A stretch of 36,239 nucleotides of DNA, taken from Candidatus Parcubacteria bacterium (GTDB lineage Bacteria > Patescibacteriota > Patescibacteriia > Magasanikbacterales > UBA922). The notes under the pieces are model-generated. The model worked only from the letters and a program-made list of their open reading frames with translations, did not search any database and had not been told where the DNA came from. The translations under genes and the position numbers were made by a program. Below are positions 1-27,979 of this stretch, piece after piece (positions within the stretch are counted from its first letter, which is position 1; the number at the start of each line of letters is the position of its first letter). The stretch is from contig JABGUG010000048.1 in NCBI GenBank assembly GCA_018646705.1, forward strand, positions 1 to 36,239, written 5' to 3'.

Positions 1-2011
1 GACCATACGATGCATCAAGAATTTTTTCCAAACGTGGATCCAAATAACTTACGGCCTCTGAATTATATTTACGATGAATATATTCAGGAATTGATTCCAT
101 CGGTCCCGGACGATACAATGCCACCATAGCCATAATGTCCTCTATTCTATTTGGTTTAAGTTCTTTTACCCATCGTGTCATACCAGCACCAGCGAGTTGG
201 AATACACCCATAGTCTCACCACGTGCAAGCATCTCAAATGTTTTTGTATCATTGAGAGGGAGATTATAAATATCTATTTCGTCCCCAGTAGTTTTCTTTA
301 CAATTACAACTGAATTTCCTAAAATAGCTAGATTTCTAATTCCTAAAAAATCATTTTTGAGAACACCAGCACTTTCAACAGCATGCATTTCATATTGAGT
401 TAATATCTTTTCTCCACCAGTTTCACATTGTACTGGAGAAAAATCTGTCAAAGGTGTTGGTGATACCACAAGACCAGCAGCATGAATTGATGTATGTCGT
501 GCACACCCCTCTACTTGTTGTGCCAAATCTAAAAGACGTTTTAGATCTTCATTTGTTTCATACAATTTTTTGAGGTCTGGCTCTTCTTTTAGTGCTCGTT
601 CAATCGTCATAGGAAAACCCTGTGCGCCTTGTGGAATTAGCTTAGCTACTTGGTCACAAAAACTATATGAAAGTCCAAGTGCACGACCAACATCACGCAC
701 ACTTGCACGCGCTGCCATAGTTCCAAATGTAATAATTTGAGCTACCCTATCTTTACCATATTTTTTTGTCATGTATTCAATCATCTCATCTCGACGATCA
801 TCAGCAAAATCAGTATCAATATCTGGAGGACTTGGACGATATGGATTCAAGAAACGTTCAAACGGTAATTTGAATCGCATAGGATCAACCGTTGTAATAC
901 CAAGCACATACGATACAAGAGAGCCAGCAGCAGATCCACGAGTAGATTCTACAATACCATTGCGCTTTGCATAACCCACATAGTCTGCAACAGAAATAAA
1001 ATATGGTGAATAACCTTTTGTTTTGATAATATCGAGCTCATACTCAATACGATCTTTTATTTCTTGTGTAACTTCTTCATAAAAATTCACAACATATTTA
1101 TATGCTTCATCACGCAAGTGTTCATCTGCATTTTTTCCTTCTGGTAAATCAACTGGTGCAAAATGCCAATTATCTAAAGGTATTTCAATATTAATTCTAT
1201 CTGCAATTTTAACTGTGTTTTCAATCGCTTCAGGCACATGCTTAAAACGAGAAATTATATCCTTAGCTGTATTAAATGAACGATCAACATGTCTAAAATC
1301 TTCTCTATCTGTCTGCCCTACTTTCCATCCATTTGAAATGCAACGCAAAATATCTTGCGCTTCGGCTTCATTAAAATCTAGATAATGTACATCTCGTGTA
1401 ACGACAAGTGGTATATCAATGTCCTTTGATAATTGAATAAGTTTTGTATTCACTTGCATCTGCCCCTCAATAGCGGGATGGTCTTGAAGTTCAAGATAAA
1501 AATTTCCCTTACCAAATATTTCTTCAAACTCATGAACAACCTTTTTTGCGTCATCGTCTTTATTATTTTTCAAAAGTTGCGGAACCTCACCTTCTATTGG
1601 ACCAGACAAAGCAATAATTCCTTTTCCATATTCTTTTAATAGATCTTTATCAATACGAGGCTTATCATTAAAAAATCCTTCTACATGACCAAGAGAAGAA
1701 AGACGCATTAAATTTTGATATCCTTCAAAATTTTCAGCCAAAAGCATAAGGTGATACACACCTTTGTCTTTTTCTGGATCCTTATCATGTCTACTATGTG
1801 GAGCCACGTACGCTTCAAAACCTATTATTGGCTTAATATCCTCAGCAAGGCATGCTTGATAAAATTCTATGGCTCCGTACATTGAGCCATAATCAGTAAG
1901 TGCCAGAGCCTTAAACCCACGTTTTTTTGCAGCCTTAACAAGTGGTTTTACCTTTGGTAAACCATTCAAAAGTGAATAATGCGAATGTACATGCAAATGT
2001 ACAAAATCCAT
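1..2011 (-). CDS. dnaE: DNA polymerase III alpha subunit, 5' part (runs off left edge)
   Basis: Replicative polymerase subunit; 670 codons are visible from the ATG at 2011 and the frame stays open to base 1, so the C-terminal part lies outside. The protein opens with a PHP domain (HLHVHS at residues 5-10) followed by the polymerase palm. Residues D397 and D399 in PPDIDTDF and D554 in NDFLGIRNL sit almost exactly where the E. coli catalytic aspartates are (401, 403, 555). The last visible residues, LDASYG, fit the usual motif that precedes VIVYQEQ. One oddity: the PHP motif normally written TDHG reads TDYG (Y41), losing a histidine that binds metal in PHP domains that keep exonuclease activity. 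It is transcribed divergently from the gene at 2078. A minus-strand TTGATT (2064-2059) with TAAACT (2041-2036) is a weak promoter candidate. The family call is secure. Confidence 0.97.
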   Translation of the reverse strand, partial: MDFVHLHVHSHYSLLNGLPKVKPLVKAAKKRGFKALALTDYGSMYGAIEFYQACLAEDIKPIIGFEAYVAPHSRHDKDPEKDKGVYHLMLLAENFEGYQNLMRLSSLGHVEGFFNDKPRIDKDLLKEYGKGIIALSGPIEGEVPQLLKNNKDDDAKKVVHEFEEIFGKGNFYLELQDHPAIEGQMQVNTKLIQLSKDIDIPLVVTRDVHYLDFNEAEAQDILRCISNGWKVGQTDREDFRHVDRSFNTAKDIISRFKHVPEAIENTVKIADRINIEIPLDNWHFAPVDLPEGKNADEHLRDEAYKYVVNFYEEVTQEIKDRIEYELDIIKTKGYSPYFISVADYVGYAKRNGIVESTRGSAAGSLVSYVLGITTVDPMRFKLPFERFLNPYRPSPPDIDTDFADDRRDEMIEYMTKKYGKDRVAQIITFGTMAARASVRDVGRALGLSYSFCDQVAKLIPQGAQGFPMTIERALKEEPDLKKLYETNEDLKRLLDLAQQVEGCARHTSIHAAGLVVSPTPLTDFSPVQCETGGEKILTQYEMHAVESAGVLKNDFLGIRNLAILGNSVVIVKKTTGDEIDIYNLPLNDTKTFEMLARGETMGVFQLAGAGMTRWVKELKPNRIEDIMAMVALYRPGPMESIPEYIHRKYNSEAVSYLDPRLEKILDASYG

Positions 2012-18111: not shown

Positions 18112-20256
18112 ATGACAGGACAAGATGCTTTAAAAATATCAGATGTAATTGGTTTGGATGAAATACCTGACATAGTTGGTAATAAACTAAAAAAGTCAAT
18201 TGAAAAAAAAGGGCCTACTGCAACTCCTGTAGAGATTGAACAAACGGGTGATGAAGCGGCTGATGCAATGTCGCAAAATCATGAACTAGACATAGAGGGT
18301 GAAGCAGAAGGTGGATCAAATGTAATAAACTTAGATGATCATAGAAAGAAAAAAGGTGCAAAAACAGATGATCCAAACATATCTTCTCAAGATAGTGGAG
18401 AATCTATCGGACAAGAGGATACAGAACAAAATTTATCTGATGAAGACGAAGATGATTCACCATTCGGAATAGAAGACCGAGATTTTGGTGGACTGGGTAC
18501 TGGATCAGAAGATGAAGAAGAAGCAGAAAGTGATGAATCCCCTACTCAAGATGATGAAGAATCTAAACCAGAAGAAGTATCTGTAGAACAAGCACCTACA
18601 CAAAATCAAGACACAGAAAAACCAGATGAAGCTGAGGATACTGATAAGCCCCGTGGTCCTGCAAGTATGTGGGGTGACAAAGGTTGGCAACAAGCTGCAG
18701 ACTCACTTGGAGATGAGGATGATAAAGACAAAGAATCCAAAAAAGGACCGGAAGAAAAAGAAGTAGAACAAAAACCAGGTGACGAAAAAACAGCTAACAA
18801 ACCAAGCTCACCAGATTCTGGTAATAAAGATGAAGCCAAAAAAGGAGAGGAAGACCCAAATGAAAAAAAATCCACTGAAGACTCAGCACCTGAGACAGAA
18901 GGACAAGACTCTGATGATACAAACACTGGAGCAGAAAACGAAGATGATGATGAAGAAGAAGCAGCAGCAGAAGATGAAGATGAAGCAGGAAGCGATGAAT
19001 CCTCTACTCAAGGTGATGATGAAGAACCTAAAACAGGAGGATCTCCAGAAGATCAGCGCGCTGCGCCAGGAGAGCAAGGTGCTACATCTGGAGAGCAAGG
19101 CTCTGCGCCAGGAGAACAACCCACTGAACAAGGTGATGGTAAAGAATCACAGTCAAAAAATGAAGGAGATTCACAGCAAAATAAACATGATAAACCCCGT
19201 GGTCCTGCAAGTATGTGGGGTGACAAAGGTTGGCAACAGGCAGCTGATTCACTTGGTGATACAGACAAACCAGAAGAAGAAAAACCAGAAGAAGAATCTC
19301 CTAAAGAAGATACTGGAGAAAGAGGTTATGAAAAAGACGAAGATGACTCATCCCATGGTGTAGAAGATCAAGATTTCGGTGGTATGAATATGGGACCACA
19401 AGATGACGAAGATGAAGATGATGGCTATGGTGATGGTGACGGTGATAGTGACGATGGCGGTGGCAGTGACGGTGATAGTGACGATGGCAGTGGCAGTGGC
19501 GGTGGAGGCGATAGTGAGGATGAGAATGATGAGGATTCATCATTTGGTGCTGAAGACAAAGATTTTGGTGGTATGAATATGGGACCACAAGACGAAGATG
19601 AGGAGCAAGAGGAGGAAGAACAAAAAGAGAAAGAACAGGAGGAAGAAGAAGAGGAAGAGAAAGAAAAAAAGGAGGAAGAGGAGGAAGAACAAAAACAACA
19701 AGAACAAAAACAAAAACAGCAAGAAGAAGAACAAAAAAAGATAAAAGAACGAGGTGGTTTAACACAAACAGTGAATAGTATTAGACATAGAAGAAAAATA
19801 AAGTCGCTTGAAAAAGATATAAAAGATCTAGAAAAAATAGTAAAGCGAGCAAATAGAGAAATAGCAATGCTAAAGATGGAGAAGCTACCGCTCGTTATAG
19901 CTAAACGAGCAATTGAATTGGCTATTTTAGCACTGATAATTTTACAACTTATACTATATATCATAGTATTTATATTGTTTGTAACAATAATATTTTATTT
20001 TATTATTCCAATAGGACCATTTATACAAACGTATGTGATAGGTTTTATATCAGTAATTCGAAAAACACTGATGCGAGCACGTAAGGTAATAAATTCAAAC
20101 ATAAAAAAAATAGATAAAAAAATAAAAAAAGTTGAAAAAGGAAAAAAAACAGCTCAAAAGATGATCAAAGAAAAATCAATGCAAATACGAAAATTAATAA
20201 ATCAAAGTCTATTAGCCCCAAGAGGTAGAAATAACAATCAAAATAATTCTAAATAA
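18112..20256 (+). CDS. Giant acidic repeat protein with C-terminal membrane anchor
   Basis: 714 residues, no named family recognised. Residues 1 to about 565 are an extremely acidic, disordered chain of Glu, Asp, Ser, Lys and Gln, with a Gly/Asp/Ser stretch around 440-470. Two conserved modules stand out. Module A (PRGPASMWGDKGWQQAADSL) occurs identically at about 179-201 and 361-383. Module B (S-x-x-G-x-E-D-x-D-F-G-G) occurs three times, starting at residues 116, 413 and 476, the last two continuing MNMGPQD. Residues 570-600 are coiled coil, about 600-650 hold two long hydrophobic helices, and the basic tail (KKIDKKIKKVEKGKKTAQK) is again helical. The gene starts 4 bp after the coiled-coil gene. 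A tethered scaffold or brush with short binding motifs is the likeliest reading. Confidence 0.85.
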   Translation: MTGQDALKISDVIGLDEIPDIVGNKLKKSIEKKGPTATPVEIEQTGDEAADAMSQNHELDIEGEAEGGSNVINLDDHRKKKGAKTDDPNISSQDSGESIGQEDTEQNLSDEDEDDSPFGIEDRDFGGLGTGSEDEEEAESDESPTQDDEESKPEEVSVEQAPTQNQDTEKPDEAEDTDKPRGPASMWGDKGWQQAADSLGDEDDKDKESKKGPEEKEVEQKPGDEKTANKPSSPDSGNKDEAKKGEEDPNEKKSTEDSAPETEGQDSDDTNTGAENEDDDEEEAAAEDEDEAGSDESSTQGDDEEPKTGGSPEDQRAAPGEQGATSGEQGSAPGEQPTEQGDGKESQSKNEGDSQQNKHDKPRGPASMWGDKGWQQAADSLGDTDKPEEEKPEEESPKEDTGERGYEKDEDDSSHGVEDQDFGGMNMGPQDDEDEDDGYGDGDGDSDDGGGSDGDSDDGSGSGGGGDSEDENDEDSSFGAEDKDFGGMNMGPQDEDEEQEEEEQKEKEQEEEEEEEKEKKEEEEEEQKQQEQKQKQQEEEQKKIKERGGLTQTVNSIRHRRKIKSLEKDIKDLEKIVKRANREIAMLKMEKLPLVIAKRAIELAILALIILQLILYIIVFILFVTIIFYFIIPIGPFIQTYVIGFISVIRKTLMRARKVINSNIKKIDKKIKKVEKGKKTAQKMIKEKSMQIRKLINQSLLAPRGRNNNQNNSK
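18646..18714 (+). repeat. Module A, copy 1, in the acidic protein
   Basis: Encodes residues 179-201. It is matched at 19192-19260 (residues 361-383) with identical protein sequence. The first 44 bases from the CCCCGTGG onward are identical in DNA and the remainder differs mainly at silent sites, which points to a fairly recent internal duplication plus selection on the peptide. Confidence 0.9.
19192..19260 (+). repeat. Module A, copy 2, in the acidic protein
   Basis: Second copy of the tryptophan-containing peptide GPASMWGDKGWQQAADSLGD, residues 361-383, set in otherwise low-complexity acidic sequence. Confidence 0.9.
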
Positions 20257-23914: not shown

Positions 23915-25264
23915 ATGTCAAAAAATAATTCTACAATCTTCACATGTTCACATTGTGACGCTCAATTTACAAAATGGGCAGGTCGTTGTTTGGAATGTGG
24001 AAAATGGGGAACTATTGATGAAGGAAAAGTGGAAACTAAAAAATCAAAAGACAACGACTCTGTGCACACTCCAACAAAAACTCAAACACTTGGGAGCATT
24101 GAAGGAAAAAATGTAAGACGAACAACGTCTAATATTTCTGAACTTGACCGAGTACTTGGTGGTGGAATTGTTCCGGGAAGTCTAATATTACTTGGGGGTG
24201 AACCAGGAATTGGTAAATCTACCTTGGCTCTCCAACTTGCGGCATCTGTCTCCCCTACTTTGTATATTTCAGGAGAAGAATCAGTAGAACAAATAAAATT
24301 ACGCGCAGACAGAATTTCTACAAAGACGCAAAATTTTGCATCTCTTCGACTAGCAAACGAAACACAGGTAGAATCCTTATGTGCTACTATTAGAAAAGAA
24401 AAACCAAAAATGTGTGTTGTTGATTCCATTCAAACTATTTATTCAGATGAAGTACAGGGTGAATCTGGAAATATAAATCAAATTAAAGCATGTACAACAA
24501 AATTACTTGAATGCGCCAAATCTACTGGAACTGCCATTATTATAGTAGGACATGTAACAAAAGATGGAACGGTCGCCGGACCTCGCACACTCGAACATCT
24601 AGTAGACACAGTCCTCTACCTCGAAGGTGACAGATACCACCAACATAGAATCTTAAGAACAGTAAAAAATCGTTTTGGAGCAACTGACGAAGTTGGTATT
24701 TTTGAAATGAATGCATCGGGCCTACAGCCAGTAAAAAATCCAAGCGCAAGTTTTCTAGAAGAGCGCGAAGAAAATATACCTGGTTCTGTAGTAACATGCC
24801 TAATGGAAGGTACGCGCCCACTACTCGTAGAAATCCAGGCTCTGGTAAACAAAACTTCTTTTGGTTACCCCGTAAGAAAAGCAAGTGGATTTGATCTAAA
24901 CAGACTGCACGTCTTGGTAGCTGTACTACAAAAACGTGCGGGATTAGATCTGGGACAATACGATATTCATCTCAATGTTGTAGGAGGTATAAAAGCATCT
25001 GAACCAGCAGTAGACTTAGCTGTGTGTCTTGCCATAGCAAGTAGTTTTAAAGACAAAGCTCTTGGATCAGATTTAGTTGTTTTTGGTGAAGTAGGACTCG
25101 GTGGTGAAGTACGTTCTGTAAATCAAACAGAAAAAAGAATAAAAGAAAGTAAAGGGCTTGGAATGAAACGTGTAATAACCAACTCAAGTAAACAAGTTGA
25201 TAAGTTAACAGACTTAAAAATCATTAATGTAAAAAATATTGCAGAATTAATAACACATACATAA
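23915..25264 (+). CDS. radA: DNA repair ATPase RadA/Sms
   Basis: 449 residues, complete. Helps branch migration during recombination and transformation. A four-cysteine zinc finger opens the protein (CSHCDAQFTKWAGRCLECGKWGT). Walker A is GEPGIGKS (95-102), and the RadA signature KNRFG is at 251-255. The C-terminal Lon-like domain is intact (DIHLNVVGGIKASEPAVDLA). The segment STKTQNFASLRL is encoded by a palindrome (24324-24343) and may carry a few extra residues compared with the family. Last gene of the run from clpC, 39 bp after the amidase gene, ending at a hairpin terminator. Confidence 0.97.
   Translation: MSKNNSTIFTCSHCDAQFTKWAGRCLECGKWGTIDEGKVETKKSKDNDSVHTPTKTQTLGSIEGKNVRRTTSNISELDRVLGGGIVPGSLILLGGEPGIGKSTLALQLAASVSPTLYISGEESVEQIKLRADRISTKTQNFASLRLANETQVESLCATIRKEKPKMCVVDSIQTIYSDEVQGESGNINQIKACTTKLLECAKSTGTAIIIVGHVTKDGTVAGPRTLEHLVDTVLYLEGDRYHQHRILRTVKNRFGATDEVGIFEMNASGLQPVKNPSASFLEEREENIPGSVVTCLMEGTRPLLVEIQALVNKTSFGYPVRKASGFDLNRLHVLVAVLQKRAGLDLGQYDIHLNVVGGIKASEPAVDLAVCLAIASSFKDKALGSDLVVFGEVGLGGEVRSVNQTEKRIKESKGLGMKRVITNSSKQVDKLTDLKIINVKNIAELITHT
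24324..24343 (+). repeat. Palindrome inside radA matching the 13755-13794 terminator core
   Basis: AGACGCAAAATTTTGC (24324-24339) is identical to 16 bases of the terminator palindrome, and continues ATCT to make a 20-bp palindrome with one G-T pair. It encodes KTQNFAS-like residues in frame. Confidence 0.7.
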
Positions 25265-25277
25265 ATCCCAGACAAAT

Positions 25278-25307
25278 AAAAAGAACGGGTCGCAACCTGT
25301 TCTTTTT
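25278..25307 (+). terminator. Hairpin terminator after radA
   Basis: AAAAAGAAC (25278-25286) pairs with GTTCTTTTT (25299-25307). The stem continues through a G-T pair and GGT/ACC to a CGCA loop. The T-tract follows on the plus strand. Confidence 0.9.
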
Positions 25308-25333
25308 TATATACCGATTGTTATAAACCAAAA

Positions 25334-25396
25334 GACCGCCCTATCCTCCTCGCTTTACTTTCAAATTTATTGAAAACAAAGCGAGTTGTGGCGGTC
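25334..25396 (-). terminator. Long three-segment hairpin after the GC-rich gene
   Basis: GACCGCC (25334-25340) pairs with GGCGGTC (25390-25396), CTCGCTTT (25349-25356) with AAAGCGAG (25378-25385), and TTTCAA (25359-25364) with TTGAAA (25370-25375), in a nested array with small bulges. On the minus strand a TTTT follows, so it can end the transcript of the 68-codon gene. Between it and the gene stop (25397-25492) lies about 95 bp of GC-rich sequence in which no gene is seen. Confidence 0.75.
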
Positions 25397-25492
25397 TGTC
25401 GGTGTGCGACGTGTGAGTTGACCTCCGCTCGCATCCCGCATCGTATGGGGAGTGAAGATGAGAAACGGAAGGATCTACCCTTCTCGGCGCGA

Positions 25493-25699
25493 CTAGTGGG
25501 AGACGCAGTCCGGGTGGATGCTGCCACGCTGGGTCGCCTGGTAGTCCCCGGAGATCGTGGCGTACCAGCCGTCAGAGCCTTCGCCCACACGTCCCCAGAT
25601 GAACGACCCATCGCGCCTCTTGACGAGGACATCGACCTTGTTACCGTGTCCGTCGTATGCCTCGATGACCGCGTTTGCGCTCGAACTCTTTCCTGCCAT
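25493..25699 (-). CDS. GC-rich 68-residue protein of unknown function, probably foreign
   Basis: Not recognised. Small soluble protein beginning MAGKSSSANAVIEAYDGHGN, with a beta-rich middle (KVDVLVKRRDGSFIWGRVG, EGSDGWYATISGDYQ) and the ending IHPDCVSH; no signal or membrane helix. It is called real for four reasons: a GGAG Shine-Dalgarno (25710-25707) 7 nt before the ATG, whereas most genes here lack one; a consensus promoter at 25787-25815; a 3' hairpin; and coherent codon use. Of its 68 codons, 54 end in G or C, opposite to the AT-ending codons of radA and recG beside it. That suggests recent transfer from a GC-rich genome or element. The overlapping frames on the plus strand are by-products of the GC content. 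Confidence 0.72.
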   Translation of the reverse strand: MAGKSSSANAVIEAYDGHGNKVDVLVKRRDGSFIWGRVGEGSDGWYATISGDYQATQRGSIHPDCVSH

Positions 25700-25786
25700 T
25701 GTGACTCTCCGATATATTCCTGGTTGCGGAATCCGCTTAATTGTCGCCGACCGGCGAAGTTCAGCTAGACCCCTGTCGTTGCAACG

Positions 25787-25815
25787 AGAATATACTATTT
25801 TCTACACTCTGTCAA
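25787..25815 (-). promoter_or_regulatory. Consensus promoter of the GC-rich gene
   Basis: Minus strand: perfect TTGACA (25815-25810), 17-bp spacer, TATTCT (25792-25787). Initiation near 25780 gives a leader of about 80 nt containing the inverted repeat TCGCCG/CGGCGA (25744-25757), then the Shine-Dalgarno. Confidence 0.8.
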
Positions 25816-25827
25816 GATTAAGTTCAA

Positions 25828-25852
25828 AAAAAGAGCTAAAATTAGCTCTTTT
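25828..25852 (-). terminator. Hairpin terminator after recG
   Basis: AAAAGAGCTAA (25829-25839) pairs with TTAGCTCTTTT (25842-25852). On the minus strand a run of Ts follows, then GAAC. It separates recG from the GC-rich gene. Confidence 0.9.
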
Positions 25853-25873
25853 AAAAAAAATTTGTCCGATTTC

Positions 25874-27979
25874 TTATTCCAAATGAACTCTGTCTTCCCA
25901 CTCACCCACTTTGTCATACAATCCTGGATATTTTTCAAAATCAATCCCACGCGAAACCTCGCGTGCGAGTTTTATTAATTCTTTGTCACTAAGTGTAGCT
26001 AAACGTAAATGCATCATACCACTCTGAGCCATGCCATATACTTCTCCTGGCCCACGAAGTTCTAGATCATGCTCTGCAAGTTTAAATCCATCAGTAGTAC
26101 TTTCAAACAATTTCAAACGTTCTTGAGCTTTCTGAGTGTTACTATCAGTAAAAAGAAAACAATATGATTGATGTGAACTCCTACCTACACGTCCACGAAA
26201 TTGATGTAGCTGCGCGAGACCAAACCGCTCAGCACCCTCTATCATCATTACGCTAGCATTTGGAATATCCACCCCAACTTCCACAACCGATGTGGAAACC
26301 AAAATATTTGTTGATCCATTTTTAAATTGTTCCATTGCAGAATCTTTATCAGCACCTTTCATTTTTCCATGTAAATATCCAATCTTTAAATCAGGAAAAA
26401 TATGCTTTGAAAGTTTTTCATATTCAGCCATAACAGTCTTTTTCTCTGTGCCTGATGACGTGGGCAGGTCTAGACCCGTCCCTTCGGATTTTTCCTCGAT
26501 CAACGGGCATATTACAAAAACCTGCCTCCCCTGCTTAACCTGATCCTTGATAAACCTATACGCCTTGCTACGATTATGGGAATCAACAAGACGCGTCTTT
26601 ATTGATTTTCTTCCAGATGGCGTTTGTCTTATAATAGACAAATCCAGATCTCCATAGAGTGTCAGAGCAAATGACCGTGGAATTGGCGTAGCTGTCATGC
26701 TAAGAAAATGTGGCACAGTATCCGGATCTCCAGACTTTTCACGAATCGTCTTGCGCTGATCTACACCAAATCGATGTTGTTCATCCACAATCACAAGTCC
26801 AAGATTTTTAAACTCCAGATCATCAGTAAGAAGTGCGTGAGTTCCAACAATAATATCTACCTCTCCTTCACCAATTTGTTTTATAATTTCTTTCTTTTGA
26901 GAAGTTTTAGAATTATTTTCAAATTCAAAATTCAAAATTTTATATTCAGTCCGTGTCAAAATTCCAATCCTAACTTTTTCTCCAAATATTTCTTTCAATG
27001 TTTCAAAATGCTGTTTTGCAAGTATCTCCGTCGGTGCCATAATAATTCCTTGCGCACCATTTAAAAAAGTATTATACAATCCCATTGCTGCAACCACTGT
27101 CTTACCCGAACCAACATCCCCCTCAAGAAGTCTGTTCATTGGCTCTTCCTTTTCAATATCTTGAAAAATTTCCCATGCAGACACTTTTTGATCTTTTGTA
27201 AGAGTGAACGGAAGTGTCTCAACGAATTCTTTGACTTCTTTTTCTTTAAATTCAAGTTTGGGAGCACGTGAACTTTTGATTGACTGACGAATCATTTCAG
27301 CACGTAATTGCAATACAAAAAGTTCATCAAATTTGAGCCGGCGCTCAGCATGTTTAAACTCTTCCTCTGACTCAGGAAAGTGAATAGCCTTTATCGCCTC
27401 GCTTAGTCCCATCACATCCACCCTGTCTCGAATATCCTCTGGCAGCCAATCCACCAACTCCTCTGTAGCTTTTACAGCTTGTGCCATAAGGAATCGTAGC
27501 TGTTTTTGTGTTATACCTGACGTAAGAGGATACATTGGAACTATTCGAGCAGTATGAACCGTCCCACTATTTTTATTCACTTTTTCATATGATGGACTCA
27601 CCATTTGTACCCCGAACATGTCAGTCTTAACTTTGCCTGAAAAAAATACTTCGTCTCCCACTTTCAAAGTTTTTGTAATAAAAGGCTGACCAAACCACAC
27701 AATCCTCAGCTGTTCTGTTTCGTCTGTCACAACTGCCTCAGTAATTACTGTGCGTTTACGTGGACTACGCTTGCTCGCAATAAGTTCTATCTTGCCCCGC
27801 ACTGTCACTTCTTGTCCTTCTACCAAATTTGCTATATCGACAACCTGACTATAGTCTTCATAGCGAAAAGGGAAATAATACAAAAGATCCTCAACCATCT
27901 CTATCTTAAGATGTCTTAGTCGTTTTTCAAAAACACCACCCACACGATTCAATTGTGCAACCTTTGTATATAATTTCAT
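25874..27979 (-). CDS. recG: ATP-dependent DNA helicase RecG
   Basis: 701 residues, full length. Reverses stalled forks and migrates Holliday junctions. The N-terminal wedge/OB domain (VEGQEVTVRGKIELIASKR) is followed by the helicase core: Walker A GDVGSGKT (about 286-293), motif II VIVDEQHRFGVDQR, motif III SMTATPIPRSFALT, and motif VI QFRGRVGRSSHQSYC with the TRG region FKLAEHDLELRGPGEVYG. Two stretches look like short in-frame additions relative to the family. One is YKILNFEFENN (about 344-354), encoded by an AT-rich tandem repeat. The other is EKSEGTGLDLPTSSG (about 494-508), encoded by a TCTAGA-centred palindrome. Both lie in surface-loop positions between conserved motifs. It has its own terminator. 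Confidence 0.98.
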   Translation of the reverse strand: MKLYTKVAQLNRVGGVFEKRLRHLKIEMVEDLLYYFPFRYEDYSQVVDIANLVEGQEVTVRGKIELIASKRSPRKRTVITEAVVTDETEQLRIVWFGQPFITKTLKVGDEVFFSGKVKTDMFGVQMVSPSYEKVNKNSGTVHTARIVPMYPLTSGITQKQLRFLMAQAVKATEELVDWLPEDIRDRVDVMGLSEAIKAIHFPESEEEFKHAERRLKFDELFVLQLRAEMIRQSIKSSRAPKLEFKEKEVKEFVETLPFTLTKDQKVSAWEIFQDIEKEEPMNRLLEGDVGSGKTVVAAMGLYNTFLNGAQGIIMAPTEILAKQHFETLKEIFGEKVRIGILTRTEYKILNFEFENNSKTSQKKEIIKQIGEGEVDIIVGTHALLTDDLEFKNLGLVIVDEQHRFGVDQRKTIREKSGDPDTVPHFLSMTATPIPRSFALTLYGDLDLSIIRQTPSGRKSIKTRLVDSHNRSKAYRFIKDQVKQGRQVFVICPLIEEKSEGTGLDLPTSSGTEKKTVMAEYEKLSKHIFPDLKIGYLHGKMKGADKDSAMEQFKNGSTNILVSTSVVEVGVDIPNASVMMIEGAERFGLAQLHQFRGRVGRSSHQSYCFLFTDSNTQKAQERLKLFESTTDGFKLAEHDLELRGPGEVYGMAQSGMMHLRLATLSDKELIKLAREVSRGIDFEKYPGLYDKVGEWEDRVHLE
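26462..26487 (-). repeat. Palindromic element in frame inside recG
   Basis: GGGCAGGTCTAGACCCGTCC (26462-26481) is palindromic except for two position pairs, and is followed by CTTCGG (26482-26487). It shares the outline, TCTAGA centre and CTTCGG flank of the pheT element at 6608-6633, in the same orientation relative to coding, and encodes SEGTGLDLP. Confidence 0.8.
26921..26947 (-). repeat. AT-rich tandem repeat in frame inside recG
   Basis: AAATTCAAAATTCAAAATTTT with flanking TATATTC, a tandem AAATTC-type sequence encoding KILNFEFENN. Its composition resembles the intergenic stretch at 33431-33478. Confidence 0.55.

Follow-up and report, generated by a model that had tools for sequence, protein, structure and literature searches.

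Candidate moron-like single-gene units with a shared covarying 3' hairpin at the radA-recG junction and other loci of a Patescibacteria lineage

A GC-rich, predicted single-gene transcription unit lies between radA and recG in a Patescibacteria genome and ends in a composite hairpin of a covarying family, and units of this kind recur within the lineage. The unit was found in the window, by which the whole analysed stretch of 36,239 nucleotides is meant; the window is one contig of the 1.04-Mb genome G000 (97% complete) of a Candidatus Parcubacteria bacterium. The nearest named relatives of its radA belong to Candidatus Magasanikbacteria, which places the host near them, and relatives of radA with 46-85% identity occur in 37 of 44 genomes. 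In the typical unit, a sigma70-like promoter and a leader are evidently followed by a Shine-Dalgarno sequence (SD) and one small putative accessory gene, mostly orphan and often GC-rich. Many units evidently end in a composite hairpin of a single covarying family followed by a U-run. We favour, with a probability of about 0.6, the reading that these are lineage-wide, moron-like single-gene cassettes with a shared composite terminator, which would be moved mainly by homologous recombination.

The initial annotation had described a self-contained, expression-ready cassette consisting of promoter, leader, SD, 68-codon gene and compound hairpin. Every one of these parts was found in the sequence (Table 1), and the description is correct for the anatomy of the unit, in which promoter, terminator and translated gene are predicted features. 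The GC content of the unit is 55.8% compared to 35.9% in the window, and the GC-richest 200-bp stretch of the window (64%; runner-up 50%) falls in the unit. A GC-rich gene among AT-rich neighbours, as had also been claimed, is reflected in a GC3 of 0.80 for the ORF versus 0.21 for radA and 0.30 for recG. The claim that the neighbouring genes lack clear ribosome sites holds only loosely, as an SD of at least 5 nt was found at 6% but one of at least 4 nt at 34% of the AT-rich genes, percentages that rest on a crude ORF caller. A recent arrival of the unit is plausible.

Table 1. Predicted features of the radA-recG region in the window.
Feature	Position	Strand	Description or basis
radA, left core flank	23915..25264	+	449-aa ORF
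radA terminator hairpin and T-run, external to the unit	25274..25311	+	inverted repeat AAAGAACGGGT..ACCTGTTCTTTTTT
Whole unit	25333-25815	-	GC-rich single-gene transcription unit in the radA-recG gap
U-run	25330-25333	-
Composite 3' hairpin	25333..25397	-	-33.1 kcal/mol, fold z -6.6; model match 63 bits; covarying family, 26 aligned copies; GAGGAUAG unpaired on the 3' side
Outer stem of the hairpin, 8 bp	25390-25397 with 25333-25340	-
Inner stem of the hairpin, 16 bp	25370-25385 with 25349-25364	-
GC-rich trailer, stop codon to hairpin	25398..25492	-	GC ~0.58
Orphan 68-aa ORF (MAGKSSSANAVIEAYDG...)	25493..25699	-	ORF list, composition, homologue search
Structured leader, ~80 nt	25700..25780	-	sequence; start site estimated from the -10 element
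Shine-Dalgarno GGAG, 7-nt spacer to ATG	25707..25710	-	sequence
sigma70-type promoter TTGACA-17-TATTCT	25787..25815	-	sequence
recG terminator hairpin, external to the unit	25826..25858	-	sequence
recG, right core flank	25874..27979	-	701-aa ORF; 83-84% identity to same-genus relative

The 68-aa protein had been called unrecognised, and this was confirmed by searches of domain, structure, phage, plasmid and genome collections. No match was obtained in Pfam, PHROGs, PADLOC, PDB, plasmids, phages, IMG/VR, GTDB contigs or 95 related genomes, the best NCBIfam match was negligible, and a search for relatives of the unit's DNA gave chance-level matches at most. The single-sequence AlphaFold model was uninformative (pLDDT 47). 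That it plays an accessory role towards hosts, competitors or phages is conjecture. The length of the ORF is by itself no evidence of coding, since 44% of shuffles of the unit's GC-rich stretch yielded an ORF of at least 68 aa. This lack of significance would suit a structured noncoding RNA gene with an incidental ORF, as would the GC-rich and structured character of the unit (z -2.7 for its entire fold) within an AT-rich genome. However, the ORF has a strong codon-phase composition (GC of.58/.49/.80 at positions 1/2/3, with a G-rich position 1 and a C-rich position 3), which supports the prediction that it is truly coding, and the SD is appropriately placed. Moreover, recognised domains (for example PNP_UDP_1 and DIOX_N) are encoded in equivalent units, conservation is limited to the hairpin instead of extending over the entire unit, and a match in Rfam is absent. 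A noncoding RNA gene is therefore very improbable. Elsewhere in the window, 18112-20256(+) encodes a protein of 714 aa that combines long, acidic repeats rich in D/E with a membrane part at the C terminus.

The radA-recG junction evidently gains, loses and swaps units in this lineage, as judged by comparison of genomes. Among 20 related genomes with both genes in the fetched stretch, six have an empty gap of 16-67 bp between this convergent pair and 14 have a gap of 173-1141 bp; named relatives repeat the pattern with gaps of 16-85 bp (empty) versus up to 2.6 kb. The long gaps mostly harbor a promoter-SD-small ORF-hairpin unit on the strand of recG, typically with a TTGACW-17-TATWWT promoter, a leader and an SD. 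The ORFs at the junction range from 48 to 205 aa, and most do not resemble each other. The same-genus genome G001 shares a recG that is 83% identical, followed by a different unit with TTGACT-17-TATTCT, a GC-rich ORF of 124 aa and another large hairpin that is not of the window's type. Exceptions are REP-associated transposase genes (L017; in L194, as read from the sequence, one lies beside a unit) and opposite-strand or mixed cases (L038, L191). The question whether all relatives share the same gene is thus answered in favor of a cassette, as G001 carries a different GC-rich unit and the other junctions are empty or unrelated. Fixed core-gene flanks, variable content and some empty junctions are the marks of an integrase-less hotspot of horizontal gene transfer (HGT).

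An assembly artefact had also been considered by the initial annotation, and this proposal is contradicted by many independent assemblies with an equal arrangement at an equal junction and by the recurrence of the hairpin elsewhere. GC-rich islands are in fact enriched at contig ends of G000, as would be expected of chimeras or contaminating GC-rich fragments: 12 of 50 contig ends (contigs L052-L071 and L103-L112) lie in 200-bp windows with at least 53% GC, compared to 1.8 expected by rotation. Assembly appears to be interrupted at such units, whether through strain variation or through GC bias. The unit described here, however, is internal to the 36-kb contig with intact terminators on either side, and the independent genomes L020 and L176 harbor equivalent units at the equal junction with the window's hairpin family, so that a chimera is extremely unlikely.

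Hairpins resembling the 3' hairpin of the window were seen in three further relatives, in two cases at a different locus. A first covariance model, built from four sequences, matched 40 of 92 relatives. The refined model R2 gave matches in 23 of 39 relatives, some of them to sequences outside the training set, and across the phylum in six of 287 sampled genomes, all within families f1 and f8 of the host's order, which contain most hairpin copies; the E-values of these home-made models are rough. In an alignment of 26 sequences, double changes occurred in 20 of 22 pairs, with 93 such cells versus 27.6 in shuffles (0/500). Covariation was found at 15 pairs of the 16-bp inner stem, and the outer stem is variable yet paired. 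A GGAGGAU strand on the 3' side is conserved in most copies, and 33 of 37 hairpins carry at least six T within 8 nt at the 3' end. This structure together with the U-run suggests that the hairpin is an intrinsic terminator. The copies are dispersed, with up to ~12 per genome. G000 has four, located in the radA-recG unit, at a contig end (C60), in C32 and in C45, where the unit has a 106-aa ORF with a GC3 of.75; most other GC-rich islands sampled in G000 lack an R2-type hairpin. The family is absent from Rfam 15, and the sole Rfam match at gathering score over the window was a tRNA; matches at permissive E-values were dismissed as chance. The matches that a first hairpin pattern gave in G043 and G057 are apparently fortuitous and were likewise dismissed. 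Exact hairpin patterns had no match in IMG/VR, a weak null result given that the second pattern recovers just one of the known hairpins. The hairpin family evidently represents a structured element with strong covariation that is not in Rfam 15 and, among the sampled genomes, appears nearly confined to one lineage. A group I intron was observed beside or within a tRNA gene at 847-1207(-) of L064.

The units that end in family hairpins were analyzed with the hairpin as anchor. A strict promoter was located 100-900 nt upstream of 45% of 55 hairpins, compared to 7.4% for random positions and 7.3% for the opposite strand. A choice of ORFs favouring SD and promoter gave 63%, which is biased upward, and the hairpin-anchored control gives the fair figure. 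A greedy ORF caller detected no promoter signal for GC3-rich ORFs in G000 (4% vs 9%), a result that was set aside because the caller picked wrong overlapping ORFs, including at the site of the 68-aa ORF. The 250 nt upstream of the hairpins contain 50% GC versus 39-41% in controls, and in 38 of 47 hairpin units the GC3 of the ORF exceeds the GC of the locus by more than 0.05. GC-richness is frequent but not defining, since the ORFs of L117, L119, L120 and L123 are AT-rich. Most of the ORFs are orphans, and a few show DIOX_N, PNP_UDP_1, Pribosyltran or a weak AIRS domain. GC3-rich single genes with promoter-like sequence and SD but another hairpin type were observed in G000 at L053 9593-10150(+) and L064 4275-4742(-), for example a thioredoxin-like lipoprotein.

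In three orthologous sets of units, the promoter-leader region and the hairpin trailer are mostly 70-90% identical, and the ORFs are unalignable in most pairs. At locus A (radA-recG, genus g23), L178 and L180/L183 are 80-81% identical in the leader, 81-82% in the trailer (z 17-18) and, where alignable, 78-81% in the radA- and recG-side DNA, whereas the ORF reaches a z of 1.5-2.2 and the protein a z of ~0, with no residual similarity in any frame. At locus B (L084/L085/L086) good alignments were obtained for leader, trailer and the DNA on both sides but not for the ORFs, except for a weak protein similarity of L085 and L086 (z 7). At locus C (L076/L077) flanks and trailer align well, the leader less so (66%), and the ORFs are unalignable. 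Swapping is not universal, as the control locus D (L079/L082) holds an ordinary conserved ORF. The L084, L085, L086, L076 and L077 genes each encode a hypervariable, single-pass-membrane-like protein of 41-54 aa in a conserved leader-hairpin frame; these might possibly be toxin or host-interaction peptides.

This comparison is direct evidence that the gene can be replaced, or diverges extraordinarily fast, within a conserved predicted expression frame; the two are not cleanly separable because the relatives are ~80% identical at best. In the case of divergence, a resident, vertically inherited gene would have evolved at arms-race speed until homology was erased, while promoter, leader and hairpin were conserved. 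Place and direction of the units are indeed constant, and the ORFs of L085/L086 and L180/L183 retain homology yet outpace their own untranslated flanks (64% in the L180/L183 ORF vs 91% in the trailer). On the other hand, plainly different genes occupy the junction in L034/L193/L195 (a gene of 205 aa), in L023 (a group of three) and in L017 (a gene for a REP-associated transposase), L178 shows nil protein similarity to L180/L183, several genomes have an empty junction and some hairpin units elsewhere encode known enzyme domains. We regard hyper-divergence as a possible but doubtful explanation.

A hairpin behind a single gene is also reminiscent of integrons, and same-direction tandem arrays of hairpin units occur in L096/G053, L083/G022 and L101/G011. 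The hairpin would then be an attC-like folded single-strand recombination site at which a recombinase inserts and shuffles cassettes, and recognition by structure would account for the covariation. However, the attC boxes RYYYAAC and GTTRRRY (R/L boxes) were found neither in the unit nor in any of 26 family hairpins. G000 and G053 each have a single tyrosine recombinase, that of G000 being of the XerD/XerA type with 136 bits against TIGR02249, well below the integron-integrase cutoff of 265. Furthermore, the cassettes have their own predicted promoters and a terminator U-run, and copies are few and dispersed. An integron-like system is thus quite improbable. The gene of an integron cassette normally lacks its own promoter, which does not agree with TTGACA-17-TATTCT at 25815-25787 or with the family-wide promoter enrichment. 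Y1_Tnp was not detected in G000, G021 or G053, all of which contain hairpin copies. The unit shows no signs of a MITE or transposon, with a longest terminal inverted repeat of 5 bp and a longest edge direct repeat of 6 bp in A-rich DNA, and no prophage setting, being flanked by radA and recG and without match in the phage and IMG/VR searches. Interpretations as attC, MITE, RAYT or integron-integrase system were tested and rejected. As separate observations, the radA-recG gaps of L017/L172 and L194 harbor REP-associated (Y1_Tnp-like) transposase genes with palindromes, and G023 contains 27 incomplete stretches of Y1_Tnp, a large share of which lie where contigs end.

Phage morons are autonomous single genes with their own promoter and terminator and an atypical GC content. 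The unit equals them in anatomy and foreign composition, as a single gene is flanked by its own predicted promoter and intrinsic terminator and the GC content is atypical (56% vs 36%), and like them it is inserted between unrelated genes without disruption. In contrast to morons, the units are chromosomal and located among housekeeping genes, many have one covarying terminator family, and their genes appear to be exchanged within a conserved leader-trailer frame. Integron cassettes and CALIN arrays likewise consist of single small accessory genes, mostly orphan, with a structured 3' hairpin and occasional same-direction arrays, but the units lack integron integrase and attC boxes, are dispersed and carry promoters and a terminator U-run of their own. 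In Cluster K mycobacteriophages, repeated start-associated sequences reportedly form a conserved regulatory element beside small orphan genes; these resemble the hairpins in adjoining such genes, but they are 5' elements of phages, unlike a covarying 3' hairpin on a bacterial chromosome. DNA uptake sequences of Neisseria and Haemophilus double as terminators and are fixed words with hundreds to thousands of copies. They share with the hairpins that they are repeated terminator hairpins, and they are tied to natural transformation, whereas the hairpin copies are few and their stems are kept by pairing, not by sequence.

For the moron-like cassettes favoured here, promoter and terminator hairpin would make a gene readable wherever it is inserted and would insulate radA and recG, and the 68-aa protein would be translated. 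Homologous recombination would swap imported DNA by way of the core genes on either side and of the conserved leaders and trailers, and movement would need no dedicated recombinase. Import with homologous recombination is probably the least demanding route of exchange. Competence has been demonstrated in Saccharibacteria, and com genes are conserved across CPR phyla (PMC10633639). Oliveira et al. 2017 (PMC5635113) describe hotspots that lack mobile elements and in which recombination takes place at the neighbouring core genes, often repair genes. The radA-recG junction shares with these integrase-less HGT hotspots a fast turnover between fixed core genes without recognisable mobile elements; it differs in the shared hairpin and one-gene frame, which the passages of that study on such hotspots do not mention, and recombination is here a proposal. 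The leader and the covarying hairpin might even act as an exchange frame, in which the folded hairpin DNA or RNA aids capture and swapping of single genes without an integron integrase, but we consider this rather unlikely.

Patescibacteria have small genomes and yet many unexplained orphan genes. The recognisable 3' hairpin and the fixed hotspot provide a handle for collecting orphan genes across genomes, and the pattern of a conserved frame with a changed gene makes their origin directly testable. If the exchange frame were true, it would supply a lineage of reduced genome size with orphan proteins that are strongly expressed and change in rotation.
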